NCBI RefSeq assembly: GCF_020382885.2
Contig: NC_058496.1
Location: 4,890,501-4,954,500, forward strand
Reading direction: 5' to 3'
DNA from: Scatophagus argus
Taxonomy: Eukaryota; Chordata; Actinopteri; Scatophagidae
Length of the DNA: 64,000 nt
The notes beneath the pieces were generated by a model. The model was not told where the DNA came from and did no database searches. It saw only the letters and a program-made list of their open reading frames with translations. Positions 6,486 through 31,989 of the stretch are shown piece after piece. Numbering within the stretch: the first letter of the stretch is position 1; every line of letters begins with the position of its first letter. Position numbers and translations under genes: made by a program.

Positions 6486-6713
6486 ATGTTTGTATCTGTA
6501 TTTAGAGGAGAATGAGCTTTATATGTCAGCTACAAGATGAGCTGTGAGGATACTGGACATGTAAAAAACATGACTCAATTCATTTTTGTGTTTTTTTTTT
6601 GCTATTCTATATTGGCAATACAACAGTGAGATCCACTGTACATGTTATAAAAATAGTGCCTGAACTGTGAATACAATGTATGCATTGCCATTGCTTTGAT
6701 ATTAGTTTATAAT

Positions 6714-6719
6714 AATAAA
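6714..6719 (+). terminator. Poly(A) signal, C2orf81 orthologue
   Basis: AATAAA about 230 bp after the stop codon, in an AT-rich 3' UTR. Confidence 0.55.
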
Positions 6720-6997
6720 TACAACGGTCTTGCAATAAGTCTTACCTTCATGAAGGTTTTAACGTACGGTTCTTATTGGTTACGTTACACTGAGGTGTTC
6801 CTATTATTTTGGCCAGCCAATGAATAGCAACGGGGGTAAACTGTTTTCATTTTAGCTAAGTGTACCTAAAAGCAACTGTCAGCCAAACTATATGCCACAT
6901 ATGTGTAGTGATATGAATGAAAAATGGCAATAAAAGAAGAATATCTACAGCCCGGACTGAATGTATCAAAGTGCAACGCCCCTGTGCCTCTAGAGCA

Positions 6998-7100
6998 CCA
7001 ATCACAGTCACCATACGAGAGACTGCTCGTGCAACCTATCTTGCTGAAGCCGGCGAGCAGCGGACCAATCACCTTTGATTCTCTCCGCTTCTACCCCAAT
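6998..7100 (+). promoter_or_regulatory. CCAAT-box cluster upstream of nol6
   Basis: Three CCAAT boxes (6998-7002, 7064-7068, 7096-7100) in 100 bp, about 130-235 bp upstream of the nol6 start codon, without a TATA box. This is typical of a TATA-less housekeeping promoter. The transcription start is probably between 7110 and 7200. Confidence 0.55.
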
Positions 7101-7231
7101 CAGAGAAATATTTTGCATGGTAGCAAGTTTAGCTAACCCATTGCACATGTGAGAGCGCTATGAAGGTAAAGCAGTAATTCTCAAAGTGTTGAAAATATCT
7201 AATCTGTTAAATCATCAAAAGCAGACCCGAC

Positions 7232-10200
7232 ATGAAGAAGAAACAGGCAGTTGCGGAGGATCCAGGAGAGGTAAGACGAGCGACATTTTTCGTAATTTTA
7301 GCTGCTTAATACGCGAGACATGTTTGCTCCGTGGTTCACGGGTGCTGCTTGCGTGCTTTTCCCACAATTTTGAATAGTACGTTACATCGGTATGACTTGA
7401 TTAATGTGCTGTGTCTAACCGAATTGCAAAAGTTAAATTCAAGTAGCGTCAGCTTTTATCAGCATGATAAGTCTGAGTCCTTACAAGTAATAGAATTCAG
7501 ATTAAACGTTTAACATGGCCGTTGTTATTTCACAGATGATTTTCTCAGATCCCGTTGATAAGACGGAGGAAGATGAGGGTCCCGTTAAAGCCAAAAGGAG
7601 CAAACCTGAGGAGGCTGGAGCGGATGAGGTGGTCTATCGCCCGGTGAAGCTGTCACGAAGTGATCTGTACAGACCTCCTTCAGCAGAGGAGCTGAACCAG
7701 CTGAAGGAGGCGGAAAGCCTGTTTCACTGCAGCCTGCTCAAAATGCAGGTGAGACCTCTGATTTTCTGACATGATCGCATTTAAACAGTAACGACACAAG
7801 CTTTCACACACCCCTCGTAAATGTCTGTAATCTGTCACCAATAACAGATGGAAGAGCTGCTGAAAGAGGTCGCCCTGAGTGAGCGCAGGAAACAGCAAAT
7901 AGACTTCTTCATTCAGACTGTCACCAAGCTGCTCCAGACTGTGCCAGAGTCACCAGAGGTTGAGGTAAGTCTTAGCCTAACTGTAAGAAAACCTTCACGG
8001 TTGGGCATAGAGGCTCAGCTCCATTCATCTCACAGAAACCTGTAACTACATCTTTCACTCAATCTCTGAATTCAGGTAAGTGACCTGTCATGGCTGTCTG
8101 GCGCAGTTAAGGTGCCTTTCCTCCTGGTGCCCAAAACAACAAAGGGCAAGTTCCATATGGCACCTCCTGCTTTGGTCGATCTGATTGGCAGCTACCCGCT
8201 GGGCACATGCACCAAACCACGCATCATGGTGGACCTGGCTGTTACAATCCCACCTGTAAGTCACCCTTGCTTTTTTCCTCAGTATGTTGTCCCAAGCCAT
8301 TAGGAGCGTCGTGCAGCTGTCAGTGTAACATCTCAATACACACATCAGCTTATAAAAGAATTCTTTCTGCTCATCTCTCTGTTATTAGGATGTCCTCCAC
8401 CCGAAGGATGTCATGAACCAGAGGTATCCAAGGAAAAGGGCTCTCTACCTGGCAGGTCTGGCCCAGCATCTCATGTCCTGCTCTGACATTGGGACTGTGC
8501 GTTTTTCTTGTCTCCATGGGAATCGTCTCCGCCCCGTTCTGCTGCTGACCCCTCCAGGTATTTAAATTGTAATTTCCTGCATGTTCTGCAAAATACTAAC
8601 AATCTGCAAGAGCACTGAATTTATTTATCACAGACTTTTGTGGGGTTATGATTGTGAGACAGAAAGGTTGAGGATTTTTTTCCCATTTTTCAGGTAAAGA
8701 CTCTTGCAGCTTCACTGTTCGTGTTCATGCCTGTCTGCCGCCTGGATTCTTCAAGCCCAGTCGTTTCCACCCCCAGAAGAATAATATTCGGACACAGTGG
8801 TACACTGGACTGCAGAACTCCCTGTCTGGTAAGAGTAATCATAACAGACAGTTCTTGAAATAGTCTTCATCACAATTAGCTTGTAACCTTCAGTCTCTTT
8901 TTCTCAGACAATGAGCATTCAACTGAAAAATCACTTTAATCAAGACCAATTTTTTTCCTTTCTTTTTCTTGTTACAGAGAGCAGCGAACCTCCCACTCCA
9001 CACTACAATAGCTCTGTTCTGGGAGATTTACTTCCCAGGGCTCACTTCCAGTTTCTTTCTGCCGTCAGCTCCCAGTGCCCAGCGTTTGCTGACGGGGTGG
9101 CTTTACTCAAAGTCTGGCTTCGTCAAAGAGAGCTCGACCAGGTAGGAGGCTTGCAATTACTCTTTATTATTAGTAGTATTTATTCGTCAGTCTTGTGACA
9201 GTGTTCATTTCACTAACGTCTGTATTGCTCTCTCAATGTCCTATAGGGTACTGGTTGTTTCAGTGGATTCCTGACTTCAATGCTGTTGGCTTATCTTCTG
9301 AGCACTCACAGAATCAGTAACACCATGACAGCCTATCATCTGCTTCGAAACAGCTTGAACTTCCTGGGTAATGAAATGTAAAATCTACTAAACCACATTT
9401 TAGTAGTTTAATGAATGATATGGTACATAGTGTAACAATATGGGAAATGTGCTTAAAGTTGTTTTGAATATCTTGCAACCTACCGTACTCACCTCTCGTC
9501 CTAAAATTGTAGCATCCACAGACCTCACAGTGAATGGAATCAGCTTGGCCAAAGATCCTGACTCTACAGCTGTGAGTGGTCTAGTTCCAGTTTAAAACAG
9601 TAAATCCATCTCTGTAGAGTATTCACATCTTGGTTGATCTCCAAAATTAACCATTATTGTTTCTCTGCAGCCATCTCTGGCCGACTTCCACAATGCTTTC
9701 CAGGTTGTGTTTGTCGACCCTTCAGGACACCTCAACATGTGCGCTGACATGACTGCTTGTACCTACAAACAGGTAAATACTGTAAAAACAAACGGGAGTT
9801 CCAACAGTATCAGTTTTTCCATGGTGAGATTAAGCAACAGTTTTTGACCATTTTAAAACCGGTTCTCAGCTGCAGCACGAGGCGTCTGTGTCGATGCAGT
9901 TCTGGGACAACCCGACGGTGGATGGGTTCCACAGCCTCCTCATGACACCCAAACCCATGATAAGGACAAGCGACCACATATTCCAGTATGGCTCCGATTA
10001 TCAGCTAATGCAACCAAAACCAGTTGCACAGTTCTTATTACTGTGTAGCACATCAGCAGCTTAATTTTACACCCCCTCTGAAAACACATATCAGTTTTCA
10101 TTGTTGATGGCAGATCCCAGCTAGTTTCCATTAATGTTTCCTTCTCAAACACGTCGTTATCGTCAGGGCCCTTAATGTCACTTAATATCCTTACCCATCT

Positions 10201-13200
10201 GTCAGCTCTTCTGATTTGTGCTTTTCATCTCCCACCCACAAACACAGGTTATGTGAGCTGGTGAAACTTCAGTCCAGCTGTAAGAAACTGAATCTGCTCA
10301 GTGAGCTGATGGACCACAGTGGGAATTATGTCCACACTGTTCTTCCTTACATTCTGTCTCTGCTTCAGCGAGGACTGGGCCAAAGGATCCACCTTCTCAC
10401 TCACTCCCTCTCTCCTGACCCAGAGGTGGGAAAGGTTCACATTCAGTTAATTTCATAATTAGCCTCAGCTACTGTCAACAAAGTTATTAATAGTATTGCT
10501 ATATCAGTATATGTTTTCAACTCACTGGTTTCAAAGTGTTTCACAAAGGAATGAGTCAAGAACACTGAATTTGCTAAACTTGCATCATTTCTTTTTTTTT
10601 TTTAGTGGTCTGTAGAGAGTGAAGCTCCAAAACACAAAGCCCAACCTCCTCTCTCCTTTGGTTTGCTCTTGAGGCCGGAGCTGGCGACGTCTGTCCTTGA
10701 ACGAGGCCCACCTGCAGACAGCCCCAAGGTAGCCTCACCTGCCTCTCTTTTCTGTGTGTAGAGTGTTTTCTTTCCTTTTTTCTCCACTGGGGTTCAAGGG
10801 TCATTTCACTTAATGAGTACTTCATATCGCATTTATGAACACAACAGATTGTCATTTGCTATATGGTTAATATTTGGTCACATAATGGTGCAAAACAGTT
10901 TGTTTCATAGACATGTTCCTTGATCATTTATGTGTTAGCATGCTCGTGCAAGGATTCATTATTAACAACACGGTGGTCTCCTGCCAGGCTGCCGAGTTTC
11001 GTCAGCTGTGGGGTTCCCGCTCAGAGCTGCGTCGCTTCCAGGATGGTGCCATCACTGAGGCTGTGCTGTGGGACGGAGAGAGCATGTGCCAAAAACAGCT
11101 GGTCCCCAGACAGATCATCACACACTTGCTTCAACTGTACGTGTTTTATCTTGACATAGCATACAGACAGACATCACAGTAATACTGATAATGTAGTGAT
11201 TAGTATAGTCAGTCAGTTTTAGCCGTACTGATAATACAAATATTCAGTGTGGTATCAGAAAGGAACAAACCGCTGATAGTTATTTTCCCCCCTCTCATAG
11301 TTTTTTTCTTGAATTCTAGACTAATGTAAGAAGTCTGCTGAAAATACACGAAATGTAATGCCTGTCTTATGGAACACAGGCATTATGACACACTTTTAGC
11401 AGCCTCCACGTGACACTTGCCCAATGTGTTTTGTTGAATGAAAGGATTTGTGCCCACCAGGTGTTTACTCAGACACTGCTGACATAATTTTACAGCTGGC
11501 TTACTGCCTGCTGCTTTCAGCCGGGAGTGTCAGCCCTCAAGTCAAGAGAGGCAATGAGACAAATGATTGTTTTTATGGGTACAGTGAAGTATTTGACTGC
11601 AGCTCAGCTCACAGCATCTGCAGAAGGGGAAAACTTTTGTTCACAGAAAAAGACTGTAGCATTTATTAGTAGCAGCATATACAACATATCAGACTTCAGT
11701 GGCATCTCGGTGTATACCTAGCCTGACCTACACTGACCTAGAGTAACCTGTTCTCTAGTGCACATTTCGCATCATCTAATACGTGTTATGTATTTCTGTT
11801 TACAAAGATCATCATGTCAACATGCTCTGAGCTCAGTCGCGTTCGCATTGTGGCAAATGTTTGTCCAGCTTCTGACAACAAAGACGGCAGTGACACCCCA
11901 GGCACACATAAAAAGTGTCTCGCCAGAGTGGCCAGTTTGGGGAATCTTGGTCCGTTTACCTTCCACCAATCTAAAGGGTTTATGTCCAACGAGGGAGCGA
12001 TGTCTCTCAAGTAGTAGTCTACCTGAGCTTCAGAGTCCGTGGCATACGAGGAACTGTAGTTGTCTCCCAGGAGCAACATCATGGTGTTTTTGGTGTCACT
12101 TCTCATTTGTGAGGGCAGAGCCACTTGGCTAATATCAGGTGTGATCAGGGTCTCCTGCTGTTCATCCTTTGGGCCCACAGTAGCAGTTATCGCATCTAAT
12201 TTTGAAACCAGTTCGTGCAGTTTAACTTTTGCAGCTAGTCTCCCCGTTGGTGTCAGGAAGCTGAGATGCTTGTGACGCGGGTCCAGCATCGAGGCAATAA
12301 GAGCTGGTTTGGAGGCGAGGTCGTTTGAGTCAACCTGCAAACAGTAATATAAAACGTTGATAAAGAAATGTAATAATATGCAGATTGTTTAACAGCATCA
12401 ACCCTAATCATCACTGCCAAATGCAGTATACTCCAGTCAAAGCAAAATGGTTTACACCTACCTCCATGTGAATTCTGAGTGACTTCTGAACTTTCAGCTT
12501 GAACTCAGAGACCTGTTCAACATCATTCTCTTTGGGCACAAGATGGGTCTGAATGAGGCTGAACGTGATTGGGTAGATGTTTGAAATGGACACTTCTGTT
12601 TCAGCAGATATGACTGTTGTTGCCCATTTCAGCGTCGCCAGCACAGGTGTGAAATTCTCAATTATTTGCCAGCAGTCATCTTCAATTTCAAGTGTCTGGG
12701 CTTCCTGCCTGTTGGTGATTGTGCGATCAGAAAGGACGGCTTTAATTGCCCACCGTTGCTCAAGTAGCCGCTCAAACATATCGCAGATCGTGTCCCATCT
12801 GGCTTTGCTCGACTGGATAAGCTTGTGCTGTGGCAGGCACATCTGAACTTGCTTCTGCTCCAGGGCCTCGCTTGCCAGCATGCTGTGATTGAAGTGCTTG
12901 ACTAGTTTCCCTGCGGCAGCAATGATGCGGACCAGATCCTCACTCAGCCCATCAGTGACAGCGAGCTGCAGCGTGGTGGCGAAGCAGGTGGCGTAGTCCC
13001 AGGTGACGTGGGTGCGCGCATGAGCTGGCGGAATGTTGTGTGTGTTGTTATGAACACACGCCGTCACTTTCCCAGCAATGCCCCAGGCCTGAACAGTGTT
13101 AAGAAGCCTCTCTGTGATAGTGGCTGTGGTTAGGTGGCTGTCTGTTGATAGCTTGTGTGTCTGTAGCACAGCCGACCTCCCCTGCCAGTCCTCTGTTATG

Positions 13201-16200
13201 AATGAACAGAAAACTGTCATGTACCTCTGATATGGGAGGGCTGTCCAGAAATCAGCAGTGAGAGCCACTTTCTCCACTTTACCGAGCTGCCCCACAAGCT
13301 CCTCCGTCTTCTCGTGGAAATGGCTCTCAATTAGACGTGTAATATCTCCAGCAGATGGCATTTTATAATTGTGCACAGTGTATGCAAGGAGCTCGCGAAA
13401 ACCTTCCCCACTGACCATGCTGATGGGAAGCATGTCCTTCTCTATCATTCTGGAGATAAGCTCAGTGACCTCTGCATGCGTCGCCAGTGACACGCCGTCA
13501 TTCGGCATGGTGTCCGGGTGTTTGTTTTTAATGTGGTACATCATGCTGGTGGTGCTGCTCCTGTACTTCAGCTTCGTGTCGCACATCGTGCAGTGAACCT
13601 CGTCGTCCACTTTGACGAAAATGTCCCAAACAGAGCTCCGCTTCAGGCGCTTCCTCTCTCCGTAGTCACGCTCAGCGGGGGTGCTAACGTTGCTAATGCT
13701 CATGTTGGGAGACATGATAGCAACCTGCATGATGTCCGAATTCGCGGTGTCCTCCTCGATGCACTGGACGGTACAAATCACCGGTTTCTCGTCTTCGTCT
13801 AGCGGCGTCGTTGACTGATGGTGCCGGCTCATGTGGTTGATCATGGAGCTGGTGGCTCCGCCGCAGTACTTCAGCGTAGCGTGACATTTCGTGCAGCGGA
13901 CGAAGCTCCCCACCTGCTCAAAGCAGTCCCAAACAGAGCTCCGTCTCCTCCCCGTGCGCTTCATGTTTTGTGCAGCTGGCTAATGACGGACCCGAAAATC
14001 TTTTTTTGACGCTAGCAAGCTAGCTAAGGTTAGCGCCGACTGTTAACGCAACATGGGCATTTGGGGGCAATAAAAGGCCAGTTTGTGACCTATTTCACTT
14101 CGGTATATGCACTAAGAGAATATGACAGAGGGCTACATGTAGGTACAATTTCGCTGTATTTAAAAAGAAAATAATGTTTATTATCCACCAGGCATGCAGA
14201 TGTTCCCGAATCCTGCGTGCGATACGTGGGGGCGATGGTGGATGACGTCATCAAAACGGGAAGTGAGGTAACGGCCAAGTTTAAAACGAAATCTGTGAGA
14301 TTAATTTAATGTGCTGTGTGTTTAATATTCTTTGAACTTTTTTGTTTTTTTGTTGAGTAAATTGTTTCTGTTTTATTAAGGTCGTGTAATTAAGGGTGTG
14401 ATGAATCTATATTTTGTCCTTTACTACCATAATTGTTATATTATTGCTTGTTGTTTGATAAAAAGTTGTTTAGACCTGCGGTTTTGTCACTACATAAATA
14501 TTCTATGTATTAATATGTACAGGGTCAGCCAAAATAATGTATACACGCATCAGGAAAAAAATAAACATGCATTATTATTTTGGCTGACTCTGTATATAGA
14601 GCATCTGTTTGACATGCTTTATGTTCTTCAGGTACCAAGCACTGGTGAGGAGGAGAGTTTACTGGTGGTTCAGTCCTATGATGACCTGAGTAGAAAACTG
14701 TGGAGGCTGGAAGGTCTGCCTCTCTCCATTACAGCAGTGCAAGGATCCCACCCTGCACTCAGATACACACAGGTGAAACCTCTTAGTCCTAATAGGGACC
14801 TGCTGTCATTAACGCAATGGCAAGCAGTAGTAACGTGAAAGTATTTCTGCTTAACCACCACAATGCAACTCATTTTGTTAGGTTATTTACAGGTATTGTT
14901 AATTATAAACTGAATTTGGCTGTATGATTGTTCTGACATTTCAGCTGTGTCTTGCAGGTCTTTCCCCCTGTGCCAGTGAAGCTGGACTATTCCTTCTTTG
15001 ACCGAGAAAAGACGTCCAGATCGTTGGTGCCAAAGGAAGGCAAACCCTGTCCTGCTTATATCACACCTATCACAGGTTAGTGTTTCATCCACCAGCAACA
15101 AAGTGAGAAGTTCTGCAACTCTGCCATGGAAAATGTTTTATGAATTTGTGAAATAATTGAATTACAGCTCATGTATTCCAAGCAGGAAAATGACAGCCTC
15201 TTAACCACAGACATTTAGCTGTGCAGCCTCTGATGACGATCTGGTAACCTGGTTCTTGCAGTGATCTGTCACATGGAGGGGAGTGGAAAGTGGCCTCACG
15301 ACCGCCTCGCCATCCGCCATATCCGAACTGCCTTCCATATCCGCTTGGGAGAGTTACTCAAGAAACACCATAACTATACATGCAGGCCCTGCCCCACACA
15401 TCTCGATGTGTGGAAGGTATGTTTTTGAGTTTATGTATGTTACCCACACATCTATGTTAAAGATAAAACATTTTTTTTAGAATCTAATTATTATTTTGTG
15501 GTACGTCCAGACAAGTTTTGGCAACATTTATTAAAAAAAAATCCCAGTTCACAGTGTTTTGGTAATCTATGTAGTGTTGTTTCCCTCCCTTTGTGTATCC
15601 AGGATGGCTTCGTGTTTCGCATCCAGGTGGCGTACCATCGGGAGCCTCAGGTGCTGAGAGAGAGCATGAACCCCGAGGGGCTGCTGATTGTGAGGGACAA
15701 CGAGGAGGCTCAGTCTCTGGAGATGGCCACCATTCACAAGCCTCTACTCACTAGCACATTGCATGGGTAAAATTCAAACCGTAACACAAAGTAGTACCTG
15801 TGTGAGGGCCTTACAGTTGGTGGGTTCCTATTGGTTCCTCTCTTTTTTAACTCTGAACAGTTTTTTTTAGTTTTTTAACTTCTGTCCTACTTTCAACTTG
15901 TTTTGTTTTTTGTTATTTTGCTTGCCTTCCACGCACCATTCCTCATTTTTATTTTTATTTTTTACTTCATCTTGCTTATAGGCTCCAGCAGCAGCACCCA
16001 TGTTTCGGGACAGTGTGTCGCCTGGCCAAACGCTGGCTGGGCGCTCAGCTCTTCAGTGATGACATTACAGAGGACACAGCAGACCTGCTGGTGGCGTCGC
16101 TTTTCCTGCAGCCTGCACCCTTTACTCCTCCAGGGTAACTACTGCCTCCCACTTTTTCTTTTATTTAGTCTGTCCACCTCCTCAGTCTTATTTTTTTTAA

Positions 16201-19200
16201 AACTTCCCTTTGTTCGTTCAGTAGGTCATGTGAATGAATTTCTTCGTCTTTCCCAGTTCTCCTCAGGTGGGCTTCCTTCGTTTCCTTCATCTGCTCTCCT
16301 CCTTTGACTGGAGGAACAACCCGCTGGTAGTAAACCTCAACAACCAGCTCACAGGCAAGCGCTCTCACACACATGCACACACACACACACACACACACAC
16401 ACCCCTTTTCCTGCTGTGTCACACAAACAAATTCCCTCTGACCTCTTTTTATACACGCACTCAACATGCTTTAACATCCTGCTCATGTGCATCGCTGCCT
16501 CAACGCCAAACTGAATTGTTGTTCTCCTCTTTGTCACGTGTAGCTGTGGACTACACAGAGATCAAGAATGATTTCATGGCCTCCAGGGAGTCTCTGCCTG
16601 TCATGTTTATAGCAACACCTAAAGACAAAAAACAATCTATGTGGACCAAGAGAGCACCTAGTGTACAGGTCAGTAGACACACAAATACGAGTAGACAACC
16701 CACACAACAACACATTTAATAGATTAGCACTCAATACTGAATTTAAAAATGATAAAATATTACAATTGGTCAGTAGAAAGAAAAAATAAAATAAAAAAAG
16801 GAATGTTTGAGAACTGCACCATCAAAAAGATGGACAGAAACATAGTAAAAATTACTATCTCCTTTGTCAGATTTGTAACAAACAGAGAGAATCACAAACA
16901 ACGATGTAGAAAAGAGTTGCATGTTCTCGGTGGAGAGCAGTCACATAGTTTCCCAATTCTGGAGCCTCTCCTTAGCGCACACTGGTCTCCTGGATCACAC
17001 TGAAAAGAGGTGAAACCAAAGTAAGACAGTGGTTACATATTTACTCTTTGTAAGTGAGCAGTAAATGTCTCTGAACAGGTTGACTAGAGTGATTCTTAGA
17101 AACTGAGATAATTCCGGATGGGTTACATACCACAGGCAGATAGCCGTGCTTTTTTCTTAGAACTGGAAATTCATTGTTCTGAAGTCTTTCCAAAACTTCA
17201 TGTAAGTCATTGATCTGAAAATGCACAATTCTCCTGTATTAGTTGACTGAACATTAAAATAAAATCCCAATATCAAAAAAAATAAACAGCATTCTGAAGA
17301 ATTTCCATCTGTCATGAATGTTTACATCAGTAATTATGTCAACAACTTTCCAAACATCCTTGAAAGCACCATCAGGGGTAGCTCACCAGTTGCTTTTCAT
17401 TGCCGTCTTCTGTCGTAGTGAAATAAGGAAAGTATTTAGTTTTGTATTCCTCTGTCTGGACGTGACCATAGCTGTAAAAGAGTCCAGTGGTACACAGTAG
17501 TGTACAGAAAAGGTACACACACCAACTTCTCATGGTGTGTAGCTGACCCAGATAAGCTTCCTGTGCTTGCCCACCTCACTCCCCCAACAACACGAGCCTC
17601 TCCCAGCATCCTGCTTTATATGGTGGCCGAGAGCAGGAACTTTGTGCCCTGTGACGTCCCGACAGAGACGTCATCGTGGGCTTCTTTCATGTTCAAGTGG
17701 TCAGCACTCTTTTACATTGAACCTGGTCTTGTAGCTGGAGTTGCACATATGAGTTAATTGTTGAATTCTTTTGCTCACATTCACCGACTTCAGGAAGTGA
17801 AAGGGAGTTACAAAACAAACAGCTGTCGCGAGTGAATGTTCCTGGTTGAGTGTGTTTTCAGTTGTCTCAGTGCCTCTGAATGGCCACAAGGGGGCAGCCC
17901 ATGATGAAGTCAGTCAGCTAACAAAATGAACATTTGAGTTAAAATAAACATTCTTTAAACCCGCAGTGGGGAAATTTGCAAACTGTTCAAGGTGCTTTCC
18001 ATTGCCAAAGTTCCTACGCCACCCAGATGCAGTACTCTGGGTAGGCTTGACAGGCCTGGGCATCGACATGCTCGACTTCCACATAATGATACCAGTCTTC
18101 CTTTGTCAGTGAGACTTGTTGGAAAATGTGTAAGGAAGGCAGAGAGCCAAAAGTTATTTTGAACCATTTGACGTTCATAAATTTTCCACAGACATGTTAA
18201 TTAACCTTGTAAGTACCATGAGTTTTAACTGGAACACCAAAGAAAGCTCGAGTTTGTTGGAATTACAAGATATTTGATTAATGAACATTGATTATCATCT
18301 GGATCATTGGTCTGATAGTGGTCAAAAAACATGACTGTTGTACTGGAAGGAAAGCGAATTCTTAATTTGTCCTGAACGCTGAAATGAGTTTGAGGAGAAT
18401 TTGTTTTCAGTAGGAAGAAACTCACTTTAACTATTTAAGTGCATTAAACAGAAAGGTGACAAAAGAGTTGGCACATAGTGGTACACCTGGGATCATTACA
18501 GTACATGTACATGTGTGGGGCAAGAAAAAAGTTCTCTCACCATTATGAAATAATCACGCTTTCTAGCTGTTATGTAATTTAATGCCATTGAAAGGGATGC
18601 CGTGTGTGGGGTTGACAGGACCTTCAGTTACTTCAAGCCATAATTCCTGACATAATCCTTCATACTGTGTGTCTCGATCCAGCTGTGTGTCTTCGTGACC
18701 CCTTGAACTCGTGCAAACGAACATCAGGGTGTGCTTTAATCAGATGGGCTGCAACAAACGTTTTAGGCGGCTCCTAGTAACGCTCTTTAAACAATTGCTG
18801 GATATCACTCTATATAATGTGATTCGTGTTCTTGTCTGCACTTGCTGCTCACATTTATGTGCTCCTGGAAATTGCTTATCCTTTAGTGTTAAAAAGGAAA
18901 GTGCACTCAATAGAGCATAAATCATCACCTGTAGTCTGGTGGGAGGAGGGTGACATATCAGAGGTAACAGATGAACAGCTGTCACGAGAAATGCACAGTT
19001 TCAAATGAATTCTTTTCGTATGCAATAGTATGTTTTCTGATATAAATGTACACAAAGTTATAAGCATTTTCGCATAGTGTAGTCTCAGTTTTGCATAAAA
19101 TGTAATTATATTGTAACTTGATATGGGAACAATAAATGGGAAAATAAACCCAATACATTTTCAGTTTAAAAGTTACTTATTTAGAACATTTTACCATCAA

Positions 19201-22200
19201 AAGACTTCAATCTTTAAACTGAGTTATAACAACAACAGGGATTTATTTCTCGTATCATGCTTACATTTAGTGGATAGCAACATGCCGGCTATGGAATTAG
19301 CCTGCAGATGCTTTGGTTCATGATGAGACGAAACTTTTCTTTGGTTGCCAGTTTTTGAGCCGCGACAAGGTTTTGCCTGCAGCAGTTTTTAGTTCTGCCG
19401 ACTGCTGAAAGAGTCTTGCTATGTTGTAATGCATATCGTAAAATGACAAATACAGTGACGGTATGAAACGGCAGTACATAAAATAGATTGTCCAAAAATT
19501 GTGAGTCAGTTCAATCATGAGAAGTTCTTGAGCACTCAGTCATAAATGTGCACCAAAAATATTTTATTCCCCGTACTACGTGAGATCATCTGTGGATGGA
19601 CTTGCATGCACATGACCGAAAGCTTGGTGCCTGGAGGAGATAATTAATAGCCTTACAACAGAAACCGTATATTGTATGCTATGTCAGATTATGTCAATTG
19701 GAAACATGTTTTGATTGTGTTTTCAGATGCTGCAGCGTGCCGTCATGCTGGCTGCAGAGAGTCTTAAGGTATTGGAGCAGCAGCTGATGGATGGTGGCCA
19801 GATACAAGATGTGAGGGTGAGTAAATAAAAAAAATGTTTGAAAGCTCTCATTTACTCTCCCCTCCAATGTCTGGACCCCTGTCTGAATGAATTATGATTT
19901 TAAAATGTAAGCCATGTGACGCACTCCTCTGTGTTTGTGCAGGTGGTCATGCGCCCGCCTCTGGATGCTTACGATGTGTTGATTCACCTGAACCCCAAGC
20001 AGGTTCCCCTGCTCAGCCAGGCAGTAGACCCCCCCGCTGTCACCTTCAGCAGGGGCATCATGACAGGCAGCGTGGCCCAGTCTGGAGGGGCCCTGCCTGT
20101 CATCGACTACAGCCCCGTGTCGCTCTACCTGGCAGAACTCAGAGTAAGTCTTGCCTGTTAGGGTTGTCGAAAGGAAGGTGTGGCGTTAATAGCGTCTTGT
20201 TGACACAGGACGAAAGGAAAGCCGTGAGGCAGGATTTACCCATTCACGCAAGTCTCAGCTTAAGCCGTTGAGGCCAGTGGCATATTCTTTGTGATATCCA
20301 GCTGCTTCCTGGAAATAAAAATTCATACTGGAGAATATAAACACTTAGTGAAACATAGGCTGTACCCGCATTGTTCACAAAGCAACAACAGGCCCAGTTT
20401 GAACTTTAGTAATGTAGATTTCTTAGAAACAATGATGATGAATTCTCAGAACTCCTCTCCTTCAGGAGTTAACCGTGTATTGCACATGTTTTTCACCTTC
20501 TCCGCACACTCTCCTGCACATAACTCATACGTTACGGGGTGTTTTATCAGACAGGGTTTTGCCTTGTTATTATTACTTGTTATTATTTCGCTGTTCTTTC
20601 TCATAGTTTCCCAATAACATGATGAAACCTGGATTGCGTTATGCAGCCAATACGTGTCTGTTGTGCGTTGTATGAGCAAGTCTACACCTCTAGTCTTTAA
20701 TTATGGATCAAAGCTGATTAGAAGACTAAGCTGATCAAACAAGTTGTGGAGAAAGCAAAGGTTCCCTGATGTGTAGTTTTGCTTTGAAATGTAATTAAAT
20801 ATTACATTTTAGCATGAAATTTAACAGGTTTTAATGGGCAATACGGAGGATTCTGTCCTGAACCTGCCTAATCCCATATATTTTCAGGATGCTTTTGGAG
20901 ACCTGGCACTCTTCTTCTGTGATCCCTATGGTGGAACAGTGATTGCAGTTTTATGGAAGCCAAAGGCCTTCACTCCAGTTCCCTTTAAGGTAGGCCGTAA
21001 GTCTCTTATGTTCTCTGTTCAAAACCATCAGTACAGAAGGAAAGTCTCCTGGGCTCTGATTCAGAAAGCAGGTTTAGTGAAAACTTTGTTGTTAACCTTG
21101 AGATAAGGGATGTTTCATTCCAAAAGGAGAGAAGAAACTTCAACTCTGGGGCAGTTATTGCAGTAACGTACTCTGTGAGCGTAAACCTGCTCGATGGTCT
21201 GCTAACTCCAAAACTGTCTCGCTGACTCCTCTCCTCCTGCTGAGCTTGAAGGGGCTGTGTGGCACACCAGTCTGAATAGCACTGTTACATTATCCTTTAT
21301 AGCTGTGTGACTGTGGGGACGTTAAGGCAGCTGTCAGGGTGTTAACCAGTGCATCTGTACTGAAACATTTACAGTGCGTTACTGTAGCAATCGCTGCTTA
21401 AATAAAACAATCTGTATGAAACTTTCAAGACACAAGATACTGATCAGTGAACATTCTTCTATCGGCTTGTGACTGGCCGCACTGATTCAACATTCCTTTT
21501 GTAGGTAGTATATCATGTTGAAGATTATGTGAATACTTCAGAGAGGGGATGGTTGTGGTACAGCTGAAAAGATTTCAGGATTCTTCTAGTCTTTAGATTT
21601 ACTTGTTGTTGATTTTTAAATGTAAAACAGATGTCTAAAAATTTATAGTCAGTCTGAAACCAGACACTTTTTCAACTGCAAATGGGCAGAATCAGACTTT
21701 ACAATCATAGGTTCATAAATAATCTCAGCTGTTTTGATCCATATTTTCATCTTCAGGTGTTGCCACCTGCGTTTTGTCCCTGTCAGGTTTCAGCTGAGTA
21801 TGTAACGTACAATAGGCTTCCAGCACTTAATCGTCCATTATGGAAATTCAAGTCAGTGAAGTGATGATTGAGTTGGCTATGCTGAATTAAAATGTAATGG
21901 TGTTAACTTACTGAGTCCTTTCTCTGCTCCTGCGTTTTAAGCTAAATGTCAGGGTCTGCACTGGCATGCATTCATGCTTCTCACTCCACTGGATGGCTTT
22001 TTTGATGATCGATGGCTTGAACATACTCAGACTTGACAGAACTATTTCTGATCAGCTGTTCTGGATCTGAAAGGTTTTCCATCTCAAGTTCAGGTTTAAC
22101 CTCAGAGTCTGGTAAACCTGCTTTCTGAAACCTGCCCCCGCACTGTTTGCTGTGTTCTATCATGCGTCTGCTTCACCTCCACCCTCCTCACTTCACTCAC

Positions 22201-22412
22201 GTGTCAACATCCACCGCTCTAACCTGATGTGACCTGACTTCTTCTTTCATTACACATCACAGACGTCGCAGGCGTCTGCACGGAGCGTGGCGGTGACTGG
22301 GGATGAAGCTAATACCTTTCCCAATGTCGAAGCAATACTGGAAGACTTCCAGGTGATGGGAATGGGCTTGGTCAAATCAGTGGAAGCCAGGACTGAAAAA
22401 TGGTCACTTTAG
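7232..22412 (+). CDS. nol6: Nucleolar protein 6 (NOL6/Nrap, yeast Utp22 homologue)
   Basis: NOL6 is part of the SSU processome (UTP-C module with Rrp7) that makes 18S rRNA in the nucleolus. It has a catalytically inert nucleotidyltransferase/PAP-OAS1-like Nrap architecture. I traced 26 coding exons: 7232-7270, 7536-7748, 7848-7964, 8076-8255, 8389-8557, 8694-8828, 8978-9141, 9247-9367, 9513-9571, 9671-9772, 9870-9985, 10248-10425, 10606-10728, 10988-11136, 14192-14267, 14632-14772, 14958-15075, 15262-15416, 15603-15766, 15982-16134, 16257-16354, 16544-16668, 19727-19816, 19943-20143, 20888-20989, 22263-22412. All phases agree and the product is 1145 aa (human about 1146). Diagnostic stretches include DGVALLKVWLRQRELD, LWGSRSELRRFQDGAI, KDGFVFRIQVAYHREPQ, FDWRNNPLVVNLNNQLT and FPNVEAILEDFQ. 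Intron 21 uses a GC donor. Introns 14 (3.1 kb) and 22 (3.1 kb) each contain an antisense gene. Confidence 0.97.
11786..13964 (-). CDS. BED-finger protein derived from a hAT transposase (ZBED-like), nested in nol6 intron 14
   Basis: Two exons on the minus strand, 12462-13964 and 11786-12334, joined by a clean GT-AG intron in phase 0, give 683 aa with no internal stop. Residues about 8-50 and 108-155 are two BED zinc fingers (SSVWDCFEQVGSFVRCTKCH with C-x2-C and an H-x4-H-type end; SSVWDIFVKVDDEVHCTMCD likewise). The RNase H-like core follows (TADFWTALPYQRYMTV, LQLAVTDGLSEDLVRIIAAA). The C-terminal hAT dimerisation domain is DPLDWWK-like (NPLDWWKVNGPRFPKLATLA ... RLSSEHVDMMIFVN). Compared with active ZBED/hAT proteins as I remember them, the second catalytic Asp region reads CVHNNTHN instead of CVHDNASN, the C-x2-H before LQLA has lost its histidine, and the S-E-R-x-F-S region is rearranged. 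I infer a domesticated DNA-binding protein; a recent but inactive transposon is the alternative. Confidence 0.82.
14520..14592. mobile_element. 73-bp palindromic mariner-like MITE
   Basis: A very short element in nol6 intron 15. The left end CAGGGTCAGCCAAAATAAT is mirrored at the right (ATTATTTTGGCTGACTCTG), with TA dinucleotides directly outside both ends (14518-14519 and 14593-14594). This fits a Tc1/mariner-superfamily MITE with a TA target duplication. Confidence 0.75.
16364..16403 (+). repeat. (CA)n microsatellite in nol6 intron 21
   Basis: Alternating CA run starting about 10 bp after the non-canonical GC donor of this intron. Confidence 0.9.
16715..16720 (-). terminator. Possible poly(A) signal of the nested CART gene
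   Basis: ATTAAA on the minus strand, about 170 bp after the CART stop codon. No better AATAAA was seen nearby, so this is tentative. Confidence 0.35.
16892..17533 (-). CDS. cart: CART-type neuropeptide precursor nested antisense in nol6 intron 22
   Basis: Three exons on the minus strand (17387-17533, 17131-17214, 16892-16999), all phase 0 with GT-AG introns, encode 112 aa. Residues 1 to about 20 (MRSWCVYLFCTLLCTTGLFY) form a hydrophobic signal peptide. The middle exon (LHEVLERLQNNEFPVLRKKHG) matches the CART propeptide helix and ends at a KK processing site. The last exon gives the six-cysteine knot: CDPGDQC, RIGKLCDC, RTCNSF, HRCL. Human mature CART reads CDAGEQC ... RIGKLCDC ... TSCNSFLLKCL, so the family is unmistakable. 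CART peptides are secreted regulators of appetite and stress. Teleosts have several paralogues and I cannot say which this is. The upstream human-type KR site is absent. A TATA box and CRE-like sites lie just upstream, inside the same nol6 intron. Confidence 0.93.
17615..17674 (-). promoter_or_regulatory. Promoter of the nested CART gene: TATA box and two CRE-like sites
   Basis: On the minus strand a TATAAA lies at 17620-17615, about 85 bp upstream of the ATG. Just upstream are two CRE-like motifs: TGACGTC on the plus strand at 17652-17658 and its inverse at 17667-17673 (minus-strand TGACGTC). Mammalian CART promoters are known to be CRE/CREB-driven, so this layout fits. Transcription probably starts near 17585-17590. 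Confidence 0.65.
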
Positions 22413-22632
22413 TCAACACACGTGTCCACACACCACATTCACCAAATGTATCAGACTGTAGCATCTGACATTTTCACCAGAAAACCTACATTAATACCTT
22501 TGTTGTTTGTGTCTCTCTGATTTTTAAACAGAACAATAGAAATGTGAATTGTCTCGATAACCATATTTGTTTTAATTATGTTTCTGTTAAAGATCAACCA
22601 CATGTTTGTTTTGGTGAAGCGGTATCATGTCT

Positions 22633-22638
22633 AATAAA
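22633..22638 (+). terminator. Poly(A) signal, nol6
   Basis: AATAAA about 220 bp after the nol6 stop codon. Confidence 0.65.
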
Positions 22639-23035
22639 GGCATATCTATTCTTTTGAGCCATATTTCATTCTTTTGCCCGACTACTTACCAGTCCGAAAA
22701 AGGGGAATGGGGAAAAAAAATACTGAAAAATAAATGAGAGTTCTGCAAAACTAGAATAATGTTGCCTTGATGCCAGCCCCAAAGAACAGAGCGCTCACGA
22801 GTCTATAGACTGATGAAACATCTGGGTCTGAAGAGGGTTTTTTTTTGTTGGGGGGGGTAATGTCTATTTTACATGAAGCCTTGTTTAGCTGGTAGTCCAC
22901 CACACCAGCTCTTTGGTCTTCCTGATATGGAACTGCAGGTGACGTGTTGCACCACGCACACAATTGTAAAAAGTGGATTCTTCTTAGTGATGATTACAAA
23001 CACATTACAAATTAGTGTAACAATTGCATGTGATT

Positions 23036-23145
23036 GTCTGGCAACCAGTCCAGGGTGAACCCCACCTCTCACCTGTTGTCAGATGGGATAGGCTCCAGCC
23101 CCACAACAATGCATAAAATGGATGGGTGGATGAATGGATGGATAA
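23036..23145 (+). mobile_element. 3' tail of a fish LINE (family uncertain) with simple-repeat end
   Basis: The stretch has the characteristic fish wording 'CCAGTCCAGGGTGAACCCC ... GGGATAGGCTCCAGCCCC', ending in an imperfect (GGAT)n run. I recognise this as the 3' end of abundant RTE/Rex-type LINEs, or SINEs sharing that tail. Only the last ~100 bp is present, as expected for 5' truncation. Confidence 0.65.
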
Positions 23146-25585
23146 AATCTGCCGGCTGGTGCAAAACAGAGTACAGAGTCCTACACCCTACTCTAGAACT
23201 GCCACACACCTGATTACCAAGAACCCAAGGTGCTTGGAATTTCTTTTAGAATTTATGTTCTCCAGTCTAGACTTGTTTCTGTTTATTAAACTCACATACA
23301 ATGCGGATATGCACTTGCATAACATCATCAATTAACAGGTAATGCAACAAGCTTTCTCTGGTTTTTCGCGGTATGCAAATACTGCAGAAAGAAAACAGTT
23401 TCATATACACTTCTAAAAGTGAGTAATTTTAATTGAAATACAGTTTAACTGTGTGTTATACTGAAAGTAGTACTTTTCCTGGCTGGTGGTTTGCGGCTGC
23501 TTGTTGCGTGACAAACTCCTTCTCACTCTGTAAGGTTCGTCTAAGATTTCAGTTGAACAGCTTCCACCTGTTAATGAAAGGACAATAAAATCTGAGATGC
23601 ACGTGAAGGTTGTGATTACTGCACACATAAAATGTAGTTGAAGGGGGATGCAGTACTTTACATTATGCTCTGAACACAATGGTGTAATCTGCTAGTAGAA
23701 ACGTATGTTTTTTTAAGTTTGGACAAATCAAAATGCAAGATATTAATGCTGTCTAGAGTAAATATTTTAACACATGGTTTGTTTCTATACATTTTAAATT
23801 CACAGATTACTAAAAATAACCAATGGTCACTGTTAGACGATGATGAATTGCTCAACACGGCTATAAAAAATCTCTTGACAAGCTGACGTATTCAGTTGTG
23901 CCACAGGATGTGTACGTGTTTGTGTGTCTGCTAATGACAGATAAATGTTTTGTTTTTTTTTAAATTACTTCCCAGCATAACTATAGAGAACATGGAAATG
24001 TACTAGACAGGGAGGTCTCTATGGTATGGTATGTGTGTATGACATTGCACATTCAACCCACCCCCTCCATATGAGTCACTCAGCAGTTCACATTTATTTT
24101 GTCAGGAACTTGATATTGGGTAGGAGATAACGCTTGACCTCAGAAAACATCAGGCCTACGCTGCAATCAGTGTGTATTAGTCAGTGATGTCAAGACATGA
24201 AGCGATTGCAGATCTCTTTTTCACACTACTTCCCTCTGCAACACAACACATGCAGTCATTACATGTGGCTCATTGTTCTATTCGAAATCATTTGAACTAT
24301 TGGACGGCCGTGGCTTAAAAGAGGCTGAAAGATAAGGACTGCTGCTACCTGACCAGAGGTTTGAAAGAGGTTTGGTGGGTGAAGTGCTGCTGTCTGGTCT
24401 GAGCCAGCGTGCAAGCCTGTGCTGACAGATATCAGTCTTTCTTTGCCTGCTCCATCCCCCAGCACCTGATGAAACTGCCACACTGGCACTCCCACTGGAG
24501 GAACATCTGGAAGACACATGGTACCCTTGGGCATCAATCACCAACATTAAAAACAGTCATCAGTGCCGTTTCCTCATGATTGTGAAAATGTATCAAGCAA
24601 CAGGGCTTAATTGTCAGGACTTGTCATTGCAGAAAAATAGAAGTTCATGTGGGTTCAACGTTTTTCCCTTCATGTCTGCGGCTGCCACCAATCTTTTCCC
24701 TTTCCCATCTGTTTCATGAACGTGGTTTAAATCCATGTGTCCCAAAAATGCAGCTCCTCTGGCTTTCTAGATGAGATTCTGGTAGCCCAAAGAAATTAAA
24801 CTGAATCAGAATAACAAAAACAAAGTACGAAAACATGCAAACACAAGTTTCAATCTATCTTTCCAGTAGATGGCAGCTCCAGTTGGGTTAAAATTCTGCT
24901 ACAGCAGCAGCTGTCAAATGAGAATTATGATTTTGGAGCAGCCTACCAAGATTTGGAATGAATAAGCACCACAAGATAAGGGGATGGGAATCCAATATAA
25001 CTGAAAAAATAATGCTTCTATATTATGCCTCACAAAGGATATTTACTAGCTTATCCAGGCATCTGCAGGGTAGAAAGCAGGGAAGTGACCTGACAATACC
25101 TTGCACTCACACTCATACCTGTGGGAAATGAGAGATACGTAGAGATCATACCTGCCCCCCGTTGCTCGATATTGAATAAAACCCAACACAACATGGCACA
25201 TAGTTTTCACCATCTATCATATTCACATAACTTGTGTCAGCACAAATTCCAATAAACATCCTTTATGTAAAAAAACAGCACTCCCATATTAGTCTGTCTC
25301 TCCCATAAGCATGGAGTTGCGCAACATTCACGATGCATGCAGGTTCTACGGCGGTGCAGCGACTGACGTGACTCAGACTGCCTTGAGGCGATTCAGTGAC
25401 GAAAGTCACGTATGTATCATTTGATGAGATATCATTTAGCCCTTGTTCTCACTGAGATACGTTCTGCATGCCAGTAAAGTGGAAGATTTTCACAATAGGG
25501 ATGTTTTTAATCTGATTCAGCAACTTTTACAGGTAACAATGACATACTTCAAAAATATGCAAAACCTGTTCAGGTTTGCAGCAAG

Positions 25586-27498: not shown

Positions 27499-30400
27499 AT
27501 GGGCAGACAGAAGGTGTATTTGGAAAAAATGTCTCGGTTCTTCCAGATCCGTAACCTCCTGCTTCGACAGGCCCTGGCTGAATGTCTCGGCACCCTCATC
27601 CTTGTGGTAAGTGTTTGTGTGTAAGTGTGTGTATGCATGGAACTTTCATTGCATTATCATACAGAAATAGAAGTTTAAAACCAAAAAAAAAAGAAAAAAA
27701 AACCTGCCAAACTTTAAATGAAAAATCCTTGAAATGTACTGTATTTTGATTACAGTTGAACTCTGCCCCTCTTGGAGTGTTTTCCTTTCTCTAAGTACCC
27801 TCACTATGCAATTGTCGTATTTTGCTTTTGATGTTGCAACATGATCAATTAATCTCTAATTGTGTTCATATCATTTTTGTATTGCTATGTTTGAGTGATG
27901 AACGATTGCAACAGAAACTGCACGTAATTTATAAGCAGTACACTGACTTCAAAGAGAGCAAAATGACACTCTTTGTATTAGACAGCGAGTACTCAAGTGT
28001 GTACATGTAAGGTCACTCACACTGGCAAACTGAGTACAGAGCAAACAGGTAAGTAACAGCCTGCGTATGCACTGTGGACAGGAGTGTATTTACAATTACC
28101 CAATAACATTTTGCTTTGAGCTGGGATCCAGGATCCTGGAGCCATAAACCTTTTGACATCCTTTAATCACTTAACAATAGGTCAGGTGTGTGTGTGTGTG
28201 TGTGTGCAAGAGAGAAAGAGAGAGAGCGAGAGTGAGTGAGTGAGTGAGAGAGAGAGAGAGAGACAGAGAGAGAGACGGCGGGAACAAGAACATGTTGATG
28301 TCAATGCTGAATAGTAACTCAGTATCACAGGAATTAAACCACATAATGCACTTTCAAACATCTTAAGTTAGCCACCTTTATGACAGGTTGATAGAAACAT
28401 AGAAAAGAAATCTGACTGCATAGCATGAAGAGAGACTTCTTGTTAATCCCTCAGTGGGTAACAAATCTGGTTGTTAAGATACAGAAGCTTTACATTTTAT
28501 TCTGATATATTATTCGACTTCAGCAGAATGTCGAGAGATGTTTCAGCTTGTGGAGCTCTTTGGCGCCAGTAGTTTTTTTTTTATTGAATTTCCCTCAGGA
28601 TCAGTAAAGTATCTATCTATCTATTTCACATGTGCCTTGACGACTGATGGGGTGGACAGGTGTGGTGCATTCACACAATAGGTGACACATGTCCATGGCA
28701 GCACTGGGAGGGTTAGTGGCACAACAATAATTAGCGCGTTGCAGACATAGCTGACAATTTTACTTCCTTATTAAAGATTACAGAGGTCTGCTACTGTTTT
28801 TGTTTGCTGTATTTTGTTTCTATAAGCGGGTCGATACACATTCCCTACTGGTGACAAATTCAACAAAGCAAACTGCTTTACTACTGTGGCCTGACTTGGA
28901 GAGACTGGTAATGTGTAAGAGGGTGTGTGTGGGCATGTACACCTCTTTGTATCTATTGATTTTGACGTTTGATGTGATTAGCTCCTGGCAACTCACTAGG
29001 CTCAACAGGATCTTGGTGAATTCAGTTCATGCTGTAGACATCTACAGAAAGGGATGTACTTGAAGAGCACCTATGGACAGATATTGTCATCGGTCATCCC
29101 ACCGTAACTGTTTTGTTAACCCTTCATTGCACTTTCAAAATGTGACCTGGAGATTAGCCGTGGGGGGTGCTGTGTGTGTGTGTGTGTGTGTGTGTGTGTC
29201 TTCATCCTAAGTTGAAAAGACCACAGAAGTAGTACTTTAAAGACTGGTTCCAGGCCAGCGGATTATTCGCTTCCAATTCCTAAACAATTGCCAAATGTGC
29301 ATTACAGTAGGCAGACTGCTGTGTGTATGTGTGTGTGTGAGAGAGAGAGTGTGTGTTTTATACTTTTTTTTATATGAGCCTCCCGACTGTGTTAAAAGCT
29401 GCATGGATGCATGACCAGCTGAATCAGCCAACATTCAGTTGGCTGAGGAAGTGGTGGAGCATGGTTAACTAACTACAACATTATGACAGCAACATAACAA
29501 GGTGCTGCTGTTCTTCAACAACAGAGCACACACACACACACACACACACACAGTCACTGGTGAATATGAGCACTGCATAGTCAGGAATAACACAGAATTC
29601 AGTGTGGGATTTAAATGAAACCTTTCTGGTGGAATGTGATCTAAGTAAAGAATTTGGCACTTGCAAGTTTAATGGCCCATCATTTGTAACCTGATACCTC
29701 TGACATTAAGGAAAAACACTGTGAAGTGAAAAGTCTTGGGTTTTTGAATGTTTTATCATCACATCACATGAGACCATTATAGCAAGGAAGGCAGAAAAAA
29801 CAACAATGCCCAATTCTGTCCTGGCACTGATATATGTAGTATTTTTCCAGTAAAAGCTCAGTGGTAGAAAAGAGTTTAGACTGCCCAGTGATGATGAATT
29901 ATGTCTTTGTATCCCAGTGTGGCTCCCTCAAGCTGACCTCAACATCTGAGTCCTGTGGTCTGACTGAAAAGCATCCTCATCAGGAGGCTGAAAGAGCAGT
30001 GGCCTAAGCATGGACCACACTTATTTCTGTTTTCCCAACAGATACAAAAAGGACACGGGGATGTGCAAACACATAATCACACAGTATGCAGAAGTAGCAG
30101 TTACAGCACCTGCTTGGCAGGATTGCTGTTACATCTAAAGGCAACAAAAATCTTCTTTTGACAGGATCAGTTATGTTTCAAAGTGGAAACGGTCTTATTT
30201 ATTAACAGCTGGGGGCAGCAGGTACCACCCTGCTCCAGTCAAGGTCACCACAGTGACCTTTGTGTACGTATGGTATACTGTACTCCTGTGTGCCATCAGG
30301 AGCACAATAGAGCTCATTTAATTCTGAGAAGAGCTCATTTAATGGGTCTTTTGTTTTTCTGGTTTCACTGATAATGATCACATTGCCTCATTCCACCCTT

Positions 30401-31989
30401 TGGCTTGACCTGGATAGGCTGACAAAGCTCTAAATGTACAGCATTCATGTTTTTTTATGCAACAGGGGGATATTGAATATGGTTGCTGTGTGGGACACAA
30501 AACTTTTTACTGGAATATTGTAAAGCCCTGATGTGCTGAGTGCAATCTCAGGACCTCTTCAGGTGAAAAATATGCATTTTTAGTCTTTTCTTAAAACACA
30601 TGGAGCAAGCAACTTCAACAGTACACATTGCTGTTATGTCACTGGGATCCAGTATTAACTTGTTTAGTTACTCTGTCTCCAGATGTTTGGCTGTGGTGCT
30701 GTGGCACAGCTGGTGCTGAGCGGTGGCTCCCATGGCATGTTTCTGACTGTCAACTTTGCCTTTGGCTTCGCTGCCACATTGGGTATCCTGGTGTGTGGCC
30801 AGGTATCAGGTAAACAAAGTCTTTTGTTGAAAACTACATTGACCAGTTAGATTTCTTGTTTGGATTTATTAAAGTTTCCAAGGCAAATTCCTGTCTGAAT
30901 CTGCATTTAGAGCTTTTTGTAATTAGGTAATGTTGTTTGATATGTGCTGATATAGTGTCTCTATCTGCAGGTGGCCATCTGAACCCTGCAGTGACCTTTG
31001 CCTTGTGCCTGCTTGGAAGAGAACGCTGGAGAAAGTTCCCCATGTATTTCCTCTTTCAGACAATTGGTGCTTTTTTTGGTGCTGCTTTCATTTTCGGCAT
31101 GTACTATGGTAAGAAATGCAAAGTGAAATTGTAGAAATGATGTTGTTACAAGCATTAGGTTTCATCTCAAGTTGAACTGCTTCATTTACATAACCAATCC
31201 GAATAAAAAATCTTCTATGCTATTTTTGTCTTTAGATGCCCTGTGGGACCATCCTGGATGTTTCAATGTGACTGGGCCTGACGCCACAGCTGGCATCTTT
31301 GCTACCTATCCTGGAAAACATCTCACCATTGTCAATGGCTTCTTTGATCAGGCATGTGGAAGCAGATACCATACACAAAATTTTAATTTTACAAATATGG
31401 TGCTACAGCTCAGACATCCAACAATTTCCTCTTATGTGTACCTCTCTCCAACACAGATAATTGGCACTGCAGCGCTCATAGTGTGTATTCTGGCTATTGT
31501 GGATCCATACAACAACCCCATCCCCCAAGGGCTGGAGGCCTTCACTGTGGGATTTGTGGTTCTGGTCATCGGATTGTCTATGGGCTTTAACTCTGGCTAT
31601 GCCGTCAACCCTGCCAGAGACCTTGGTCCACGTCTTTTCACTGCTTTGGCTGGGTGGGGCAGTGAAGTTTTCACGTAAGTGCAAAGATTTTAAGCATTTT
31701 CCTCATTATTTGACTGAGTGAACTTTCTTGAAAGCAAAATGAAAACAAATTCTGTAATAATAAACCTCTTTCTTGTCACTCCTGCAGGGCTAGAGATGGA
31801 TGGTTCCTGGTGCCCATTTTTGCCCCATTCCTGGGCGCCATCATTGGTGTGATGATCTACCAAGTGATGGTTGGCTTCCACGTGGAGGGAGAAGCACGTG
31901 ACCAGAAGGCCAGAGAGGAGGAGAATGTCCGTCTCACCAATGTCACCGCCAACGACAATCCCAAAGAAGCTACCAAAGACATGCACTAA
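27499..31989 (+). CDS. aqp3: Aquaporin-3 (aquaglyceroporin)
   Basis: Six exons (27499-27606, 30683-30809, 30971-31108, 31236-31351, 31457-31674, 31788-31989) encode 302 aa (human AQP3 is 292 aa). It is a plasma-membrane channel for water, glycerol and small solutes. It has the six-helix, two-half aquaporin fold. The first NPA motif is in [16 protein letters not shown] and the second in [15 protein letters not shown]; the Asp after the second NPA marks glycerol-conducting members. MGRQK at the start, [16 protein letters not shown] in helix 1 and NGFFDQ in loop C match AQP3. Intron 4 (31352-31456) appears to use a GC donor (CAG|GCATGT), is 105 bp long and has no in-frame stop. The ATG sits in a good context (AAATCATGG). 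nol6 is its upstream neighbour, as on human 9p13. The C-terminal tail (after about residue 265) is acidic and variable. Confidence 0.97.
28183..28275 (+). repeat. Compound (TG)n / (GA)n microsatellite in aqp3 intron 1
   Basis: A TG run followed by a longer, interrupted GA/GTGA run. Confidence 0.9.
28581..28624 (+). mobile_element. Rex1-like LINE 3' end with (TCTA)n tail
   Basis: The wording 'AATTTCCCTCAGGATCAGTA' followed by AAAGTATCTATCTATC is the usual fish LINE (Rex1/CR1-type) terminal sequence with a tetranucleotide tail. Only the end is present. Confidence 0.6.
29169..29199 (+). repeat. (TG)n microsatellite in aqp3 intron 1
   Basis: Uninterrupted TG run. Confidence 0.9.
29523..29552 (+). 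repeat. (CA)n microsatellite in aqp3 intron 1
   Basis: Uninterrupted CA run. Confidence 0.9.

Follow-up and report, generated by a model that had tools for sequence, protein, structure and literature searches.

A complete CART neuropeptide gene nested antisense within an intron of nol6 in Scatophagus argus

In vertebrate genomes, 5–14% of genes overlap, and most of these overlaps are not conserved among lineages (PMC2151771). The 567 nested pairs of opposite orientation described in Caenorhabditis elegans have a mean co-expression below that of neighboring genes, and a nested gene there can induce its host (PMC12274878). Among described systems, two are close to the locus reported here: the lrrtm genes, which are nested in alpha-catenin introns and whose position is explained by translocation (PMC3933685), and ceh-10, which lies within polq-1 of C. 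elegans (PMC12274878). In a 64,000-nucleotide stretch of the S. argus genome (C4:4890501-4954500, hereafter the window), a complete, intact-looking CART gene lies on the opposite strand within intron 22 of nol6. This arrangement resembles the LRRTM/alpha-catenin pairs, in which a neuronal gene came to occupy the opposite strand of a host intron by an early translocation; however, those pairs occur in most jawed vertebrates and were duplicated together with their hosts, whereas cart-nol6 is one locus in one genome (PMC3933685). It also differs from them in that its host serves ribosome biogenesis and its nested gene has three exons. With ceh-10 in polq-1 it shares an opposite-strand gene of neuronal role within a maintenance-type host, but induction of the host by the nested gene was demonstrated by experiment in the nematode (PMC12274878) and would be hypothetical for cart-nol6.

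The CART gene itself is ordinary and nested genes are already known; it is the address of cart within nol6 that is unusual. Human CARTPT, which adjoins MAP1B, belongs to the same peptide family, has the same gene structure and is not inside NOL6. Its location on chromosome 5 is given in Table 1 of PMC4436185. Teleost CART1 (also cart4) shares with the nested gene its three coding exons, six cysteines, an identity of ~61% to the human mature peptide and, in tilapia, fugu and tetraodon, a length of 112 residues (PMC4436185, Table 1; PMC13364575). The sequence-only reading of this DNA knew of no description of a CART gene inside nol6, and no paper naming the two together as neighbors was found in the open-access article text searched. 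The main texts of PMC4436185 and PMC13364575 do not mention nol6, “CART” is absent as a whole word from PMC7408487, and the nol6 passage of PMC5332411 concerns interferon.

Structure of the nested gene and its host

Spliced translation of the window yields a 112-residue CART precursor from three minus-strand exons (Table 1). All junctions are GT-AG, with donors GTGAGC (exon 1) and GTATGT and acceptors reading TTTTCAG, and the exon lengths are all multiples of three, in phase 0. The exact coordinates of three phase-0 exons proposed in the sequence-only reading were reproduced, and the six-cysteine knot and KK processing site that it described are both present. The dibasic site reads RKK and is followed by a mature peptide of exactly 41 residues, with the knot cysteines at residues 78, 84, 96, 98, 104, and 111 of the precursor. 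Exon 3 begins at the first of these cysteines, as required by the CART gene rule that the third coding exon starts at the first knot cysteine (PMC13364575). The N-terminus is hydrophobic, with a peak at approximately residues 4–15 (hydropathy only). A KR site, which gives the long CART form in mammals and some fish carts and is not a feature of the whole family (PMC13364575), is absent from the pro-region.

Failure of the three exons to match CART in a profile search had been named beforehand as one of two refuting outcomes. The Pfam CART profile aligned with residues 45–112 at 115.2 bits (E 1.5e-33), against a curated cut-off of 27 bits. The product also matched 1hy9, a solved structure of the human peptide, with an E value of 7.6e-14. 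The last 41 residues are identical to human CART at 25 of 41 positions (61%). When exon 3 is compared with those of the five paralogs in the same genome, 22–25 of the 35 third codon positions differ, compared with 8–12 first and 9–13 second positions. Differences at third positions are thus about twice as frequent, which demonstrates long, though not necessarily recent, constraint.

The host gene on the plus strand is complete, with 26 coding exons counted, and its 1136-residue model aligns with human NOL6 (7mq8_NH) over residues 27–1135 at 1379 bits. Exons were placed by tblastn with a human NOL6 sequence as query, because a custom codon-and-splice predictor missed several. Three nol6 exons were searched for in the genome (570.7 Mb in 48 contigs) and each occurs once; one nol6 exon searched against bacterial and archaeal contigs gave no relative, as expected. 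The window contains no N. The coding exons and promoter-like elements of cart lie wholly inside one intron of this intact, opposite-strand gene, bearing out the earlier claim of antisense nesting in a 3.1-kb intron 22. The next recognized gene downstream of nol6 is aqp3, designated aqp3a by position. Genes of aqp3a type lie downstream of nol6 in cichlids (PMC7408487), and arrdc3, aqp3 and nol6 share one BAC in sole (PMC6236887), so the neighborhood of the host is normal for such fish.

Table 1. Positions in the window of the nested cart gene, its candidate signals, the host gene and the downstream neighbor
Feature	Position	Strand	Remarks
nol6 coding exons 1 to 26	7232..22413	+	tblastn and hand count; exon 1 guessed from a gene model, with no homology behind it; a few inner borders judged visually
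nol6 intron 22 (host of cart)	16669..19726	+	3058 bp, phase 0; exon 22 ends at 16668
nol6 exon 23	19727..19816	+	first exon after the host intron; phase 0
cart exon 1, coding part	17387..17533	-	49 codons, 147 nt; putative signal peptide and N-terminal pro-region
cart exon 2	17131..17214	-	28 codons, 84 nt; LHEVLERLQ region and KK processing site
cart exon 3	16892..16999	-	35 codons and TGA, 108 nt; six-cysteine mature CART core
TATAAA	17615..17620	-	starts 87 bp before cart ATG; consensus match only
Two CRE-like sites, TGACGTC class	17667..17673 and 17652..17658	-	start 140 and 125 bp before cart ATG; consensus match only
ATTAAA, candidate poly(A) signal	16715..16720	-	171 nt past cart stop; consensus match only
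aqp3 (aqp3a by position)	27499..31983	+	next recognized gene downstream of nol6

An Rfam search of window positions 6000–24000 returned nothing at gathering scores. Among repeats of at least 20 nt in the host intron there is no inverted pair, and the five two-copy direct families, at 72–76%, are likely due to chance. A source copy of the intron was sought by comparing window positions 17540–19700 with the genome, and none could be accepted: the 15 further matches, at approximately 19279–19371 and 19453–19596, are all short, 72–87% identical and attributable to dispersed repeats.

Identity of the nested gene among six CART genes

A Pfam CART scan of the genome gave nine exon matches belonging to six genes, of which that in the window is the only one located in nol6. 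The gene termed cart4 (C1) has the C-terminal motif KCI and cart5 (C17) has RCY, the motifs of CART4 and CART5, respectively (PMC4436185). No exon 2 of cart4 was identified. Exon 3 is alike in 32 of 35 residues between the genes taken as cart3a (C1) and cart3b (C7), both of which carry a KR site; for the gene on C15, exclusion and its MAP1 neighbor led to the assignment as CART2. The core of this cart2 reads LCSC, while those of the other five genes read LCDC or MCDC.

With the other five genes assigned, elimination, together with product length and chromosome, identifies the nested gene as probable CART1. There are good grounds for placing it in the human CARTPT group as fish CART1, the “cart4” of the 2026 nomenclature, in which the chicken gene of the CARTPT clade is listed as “cart4 (formerly cart1)” (PMC13364575). 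The earlier reading spoke of a teleost cart paralog; the gene is probably not a spare copy but fish CART1 itself. Identity to human over the 35 residues of exon 3 does not favor the nested gene as the CARTPT ortholog: it is 30 for cart3a, 29 for cart2, and 28 for cart3b, compared with 23 for the nested gene and 22 each for cart4 and cart5. For its mature part, the 61% identity to human CART fits the 61–66% given for four fish CART1 against the chicken protein (PMC4436185). Fish CART1 is reported to be less like tetrapod CART1 in sequence, and none was identified in zebrafish (PMC4436185).

Origin of the nesting

Apart from the window, the genome has four CART loci, and MAP1 genes adjoin two of them. 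Exon matches begin 38 kb after cart3a on C1 and 1.6 kb after cart2 on C15, whereas cart3b lies 3.7 Mb from the MAP1 gene of C7, and C17, which carries cart5, has no MAP1 match. The tight CART-MAP1 neighborhood of cart2, measured to the first MAP1 exon match, is at C15:9150568-9155084. MAP1 was located with PF23415; PF00414 gave no matches and was silent on controls too. The genome scan gave 20 MAP1 exon matches, four on each of five contigs, and none of these is on C4. From comparisons with MAP1A and MAP1B query sequences, the genes on C1 and C7 are map1a-like, that on C20 is map1b-like (74.6% to MAP1B, 64.7% to MAP1A), and that on C6 is 57% identical to MAP1B and 59% to MAP1A.

MAP1 genes flank members of other CART branches, so this adjacency probably predates the split of the CART paralogs, and it looks ancestral for the family. 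Since no MAP1 match is found on C4, the nesting is then probably derived. Two further genes, mrps27 and mccc2, both 5q13 neighbors of human CARTPT, are on C4 at 7.6 and 9.8 Mb from cart and 2.1 Mb apart. Local synteny is not kept, and the shared contig suggests that cart1 and its former neighbors have probably remained together on an ancestral chromosome.

C20 carries another aqp3 gene and is for that reason the probable duplicate of this part of C4. The map1b-like gene lies at C20:3323262-3330167, 1.4 Mb from the second aqp3. In the 90 kb around that aqp3, neither nol6 (best E 3.0) nor cart (best E 0.44) was found. A comparison of the open reading frames of 104 kb of C4 (the window and 20 kb on each side) with the same 90 kb gave 23 matches, 21 of them in aqp3, which serves as a positive control but is an intact gene, so that decayed exons could be missed. 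The other two matches, at window positions 23008–23210, look like a repeat and were discarded. The kinship of C4 and C20 thus rests on aqp3 and map1b, there being no other clear gene match in the compared stretches. A map1b-like gene on C20, with cart1 and nol6 on C4, gives the appearance of reciprocal loss of genes following the teleost duplication.

A plain inversion break is excluded as an explanation by the intact flanking nol6 exons, and retroposition is unlikely given that both cart introns are kept, which points to a move at the DNA level. The simplest account is a small DNA insertion or transposition, in which a short segment carrying the whole three-exon cart would have left its ancestral MAP1 neighborhood for the nol6 intron. 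The relocation would have taken place among the ancestors of this fish within its own lineage, either preceding or following the teleost genome duplication, its date and direction being read from a single genome. It is likely, on balance, that an intact fish cart, probably CART1, was relocated in this way and that the two genes are largely independent. The earlier reading held that the gene “became, or always was, nested”; the former is favored, and the latter is improbable in view of the apparently ancestral CART-MAP1 neighborhood.

Two other histories have to be weighed against relocation. The nesting may instead be old, dating to the bony-fish or jawed-vertebrate ancestor, with tetrapods having moved CARTPT out to MAP1B. 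A single deletion of the nested pair would leave C20 as it is observed, free of nol6 and cart around aqp3, and cart, nol6, mrps27 and mccc2 do share one contig, yet MAP1 stands beside CART genes of other branches, an adjacency probably older than the paralog split, which makes an ancient nesting unlikely. We are equally disinclined to regard the nested gene as a separate, dispersed CART duplicate in a species that lost its true CARTPT ortholog. Such a duplicate would be consistent with the weak match of exon 3 to human (23 of 35 identical) and with the lack of local synteny; against it, the other five of the six genes are assigned, length and identity match those published for fish CART1, and the contig is shared with mrps27 and mccc2. 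The preferred relocation out of an ancestral neighborhood would explain, in a way that can be checked, why the history of fish CART1 is unclear.

Activity of the nested gene and other features of the window

The TATA box and CRE-like motifs noted in the sequence-only reading are both present upstream of cart, although TGACGTC by itself is not enriched in the window (four matches on both strands, 2.81 expected; at least four in 29 of 100 shuffles). The arrangement of CRE, spacer and TATA, a pattern defined after seeing the site, occurs once in the window against 0.01 expected and was found in one of 100 shuffles. In the 400 bp upstream of the ATG of the other five CART genes, TGACGTC is found in cart3b only (two sites) and TATAAA in cart2 (-110) and cart5 (-323); cart3a and cart4 have neither. 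From these motifs, the nested gene is probably driven by a TATA/CRE promoter of its own. The ATTAAA listed in Table 1, the likeliest poly(A) signal of cart, is placed 46 bp from the splice donor of nol6 exon 22.

According to the model proposed here, cart would be transcribed in neurons from its own promoter and spliced, and its precursor would be secreted and cut after KK to give a 41-residue peptide with three disulfides; nol6 and cart would probably run largely independently. The “cart4” of tilapia was cloned from brain cDNA and that of seabream has also been cloned, both being measured in brain (PMC13364575), which bears on the nested gene only if they are orthologous. This same expression, subject to the same proviso, speaks against a silent relic in the course of becoming a pseudogene, as do the intact reading frame, six cysteines, KK site, consensus splice sites and TATA box; exon 3 is more diverged from human than in cart2 and cart3, as decay might produce, and even so a relic is extremely unlikely. 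Coupling of cart expression to nol6 transcription through antisense interference, raised in the earlier reading, is only a possibility. Mutual regulation by collision, antisense RNA or shared enhancers would be compatible with any origin and could find a basis in the short distance from the candidate poly(A) signal to the exon 22 donor and in the C. elegans nested gene that induces a shortened form of the host encoded on the other strand (PMC12274878). However, cart has promoter-like elements of its own, the other CART genes of the genome were not found in nol6, and nested pairs are on average less co-expressed than neighbors (PMC12274878), so that a functional nesting is unlikely.

It is interesting to speculate whether the relocation is percomorph-wide, with neuronal cart transcription pausing or altering nol6 through splicing at the exon 22 donor, a satiety peptide thereby tied to ribosome production, and nol6 a favored landing site that took in a second antisense gene of ZBED type; as a whole, such a scheme is very unlikely. 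The cart-nol6 locus nevertheless forms a natural pair for testing the effect of an opposite-strand nested neuropeptide gene on a housekeeping host. The shared locus also matters for the editing of nol6 or cart in fish and for nol6 quantification from unstranded RNA-seq.

The ZBED-type gene, apparently derived from ZBED/hAT sequences, occupies window positions 11786–13964 on the minus strand, within nol6 intron 14 (~11141–14192). It comprises a 517-residue open reading frame with BED fingers and a second frame with an hAT dimerization domain, separated by an apparent GT-AG intron (12461–12335). The first 272 residues have one full-identity match in the genome, the next best being 42% over 125 residues. 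No clear terminal inverted repeats were found, and the only long-range inverted pair that the intron contains, 15 nt long at 87%, has one of its arms within the reading frame; the gene looks domesticated rather than mobile. Together with cart, it would mean that nol6 may host two antisense protein genes in S. argus. A perfect CRE palindrome, TGACGTCA, is situated at 14243–14250 in nol6 exon 15, approximately 280 bp upstream of the ZBED-like ATG.

Elsewhere in the window, two closely similar plus-strand open reading frame stretches without a Pfam match lie some 12 kb apart (44234–44566 and 56238–56567), and minus-strand sequence at 51510–51677 looks related to them, possibly as tandem gene or repeat copies. 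An open reading frame at 60530–61171 on the minus strand, likewise without a Pfam match, has a Pro/Gly-rich unit of 20-odd residues directly repeated in three to four copies. At 41908–42192, also on the minus strand, is an exon encoding a ricin-type beta-trefoil lectin domain, perhaps of a GalNAc-transferase.
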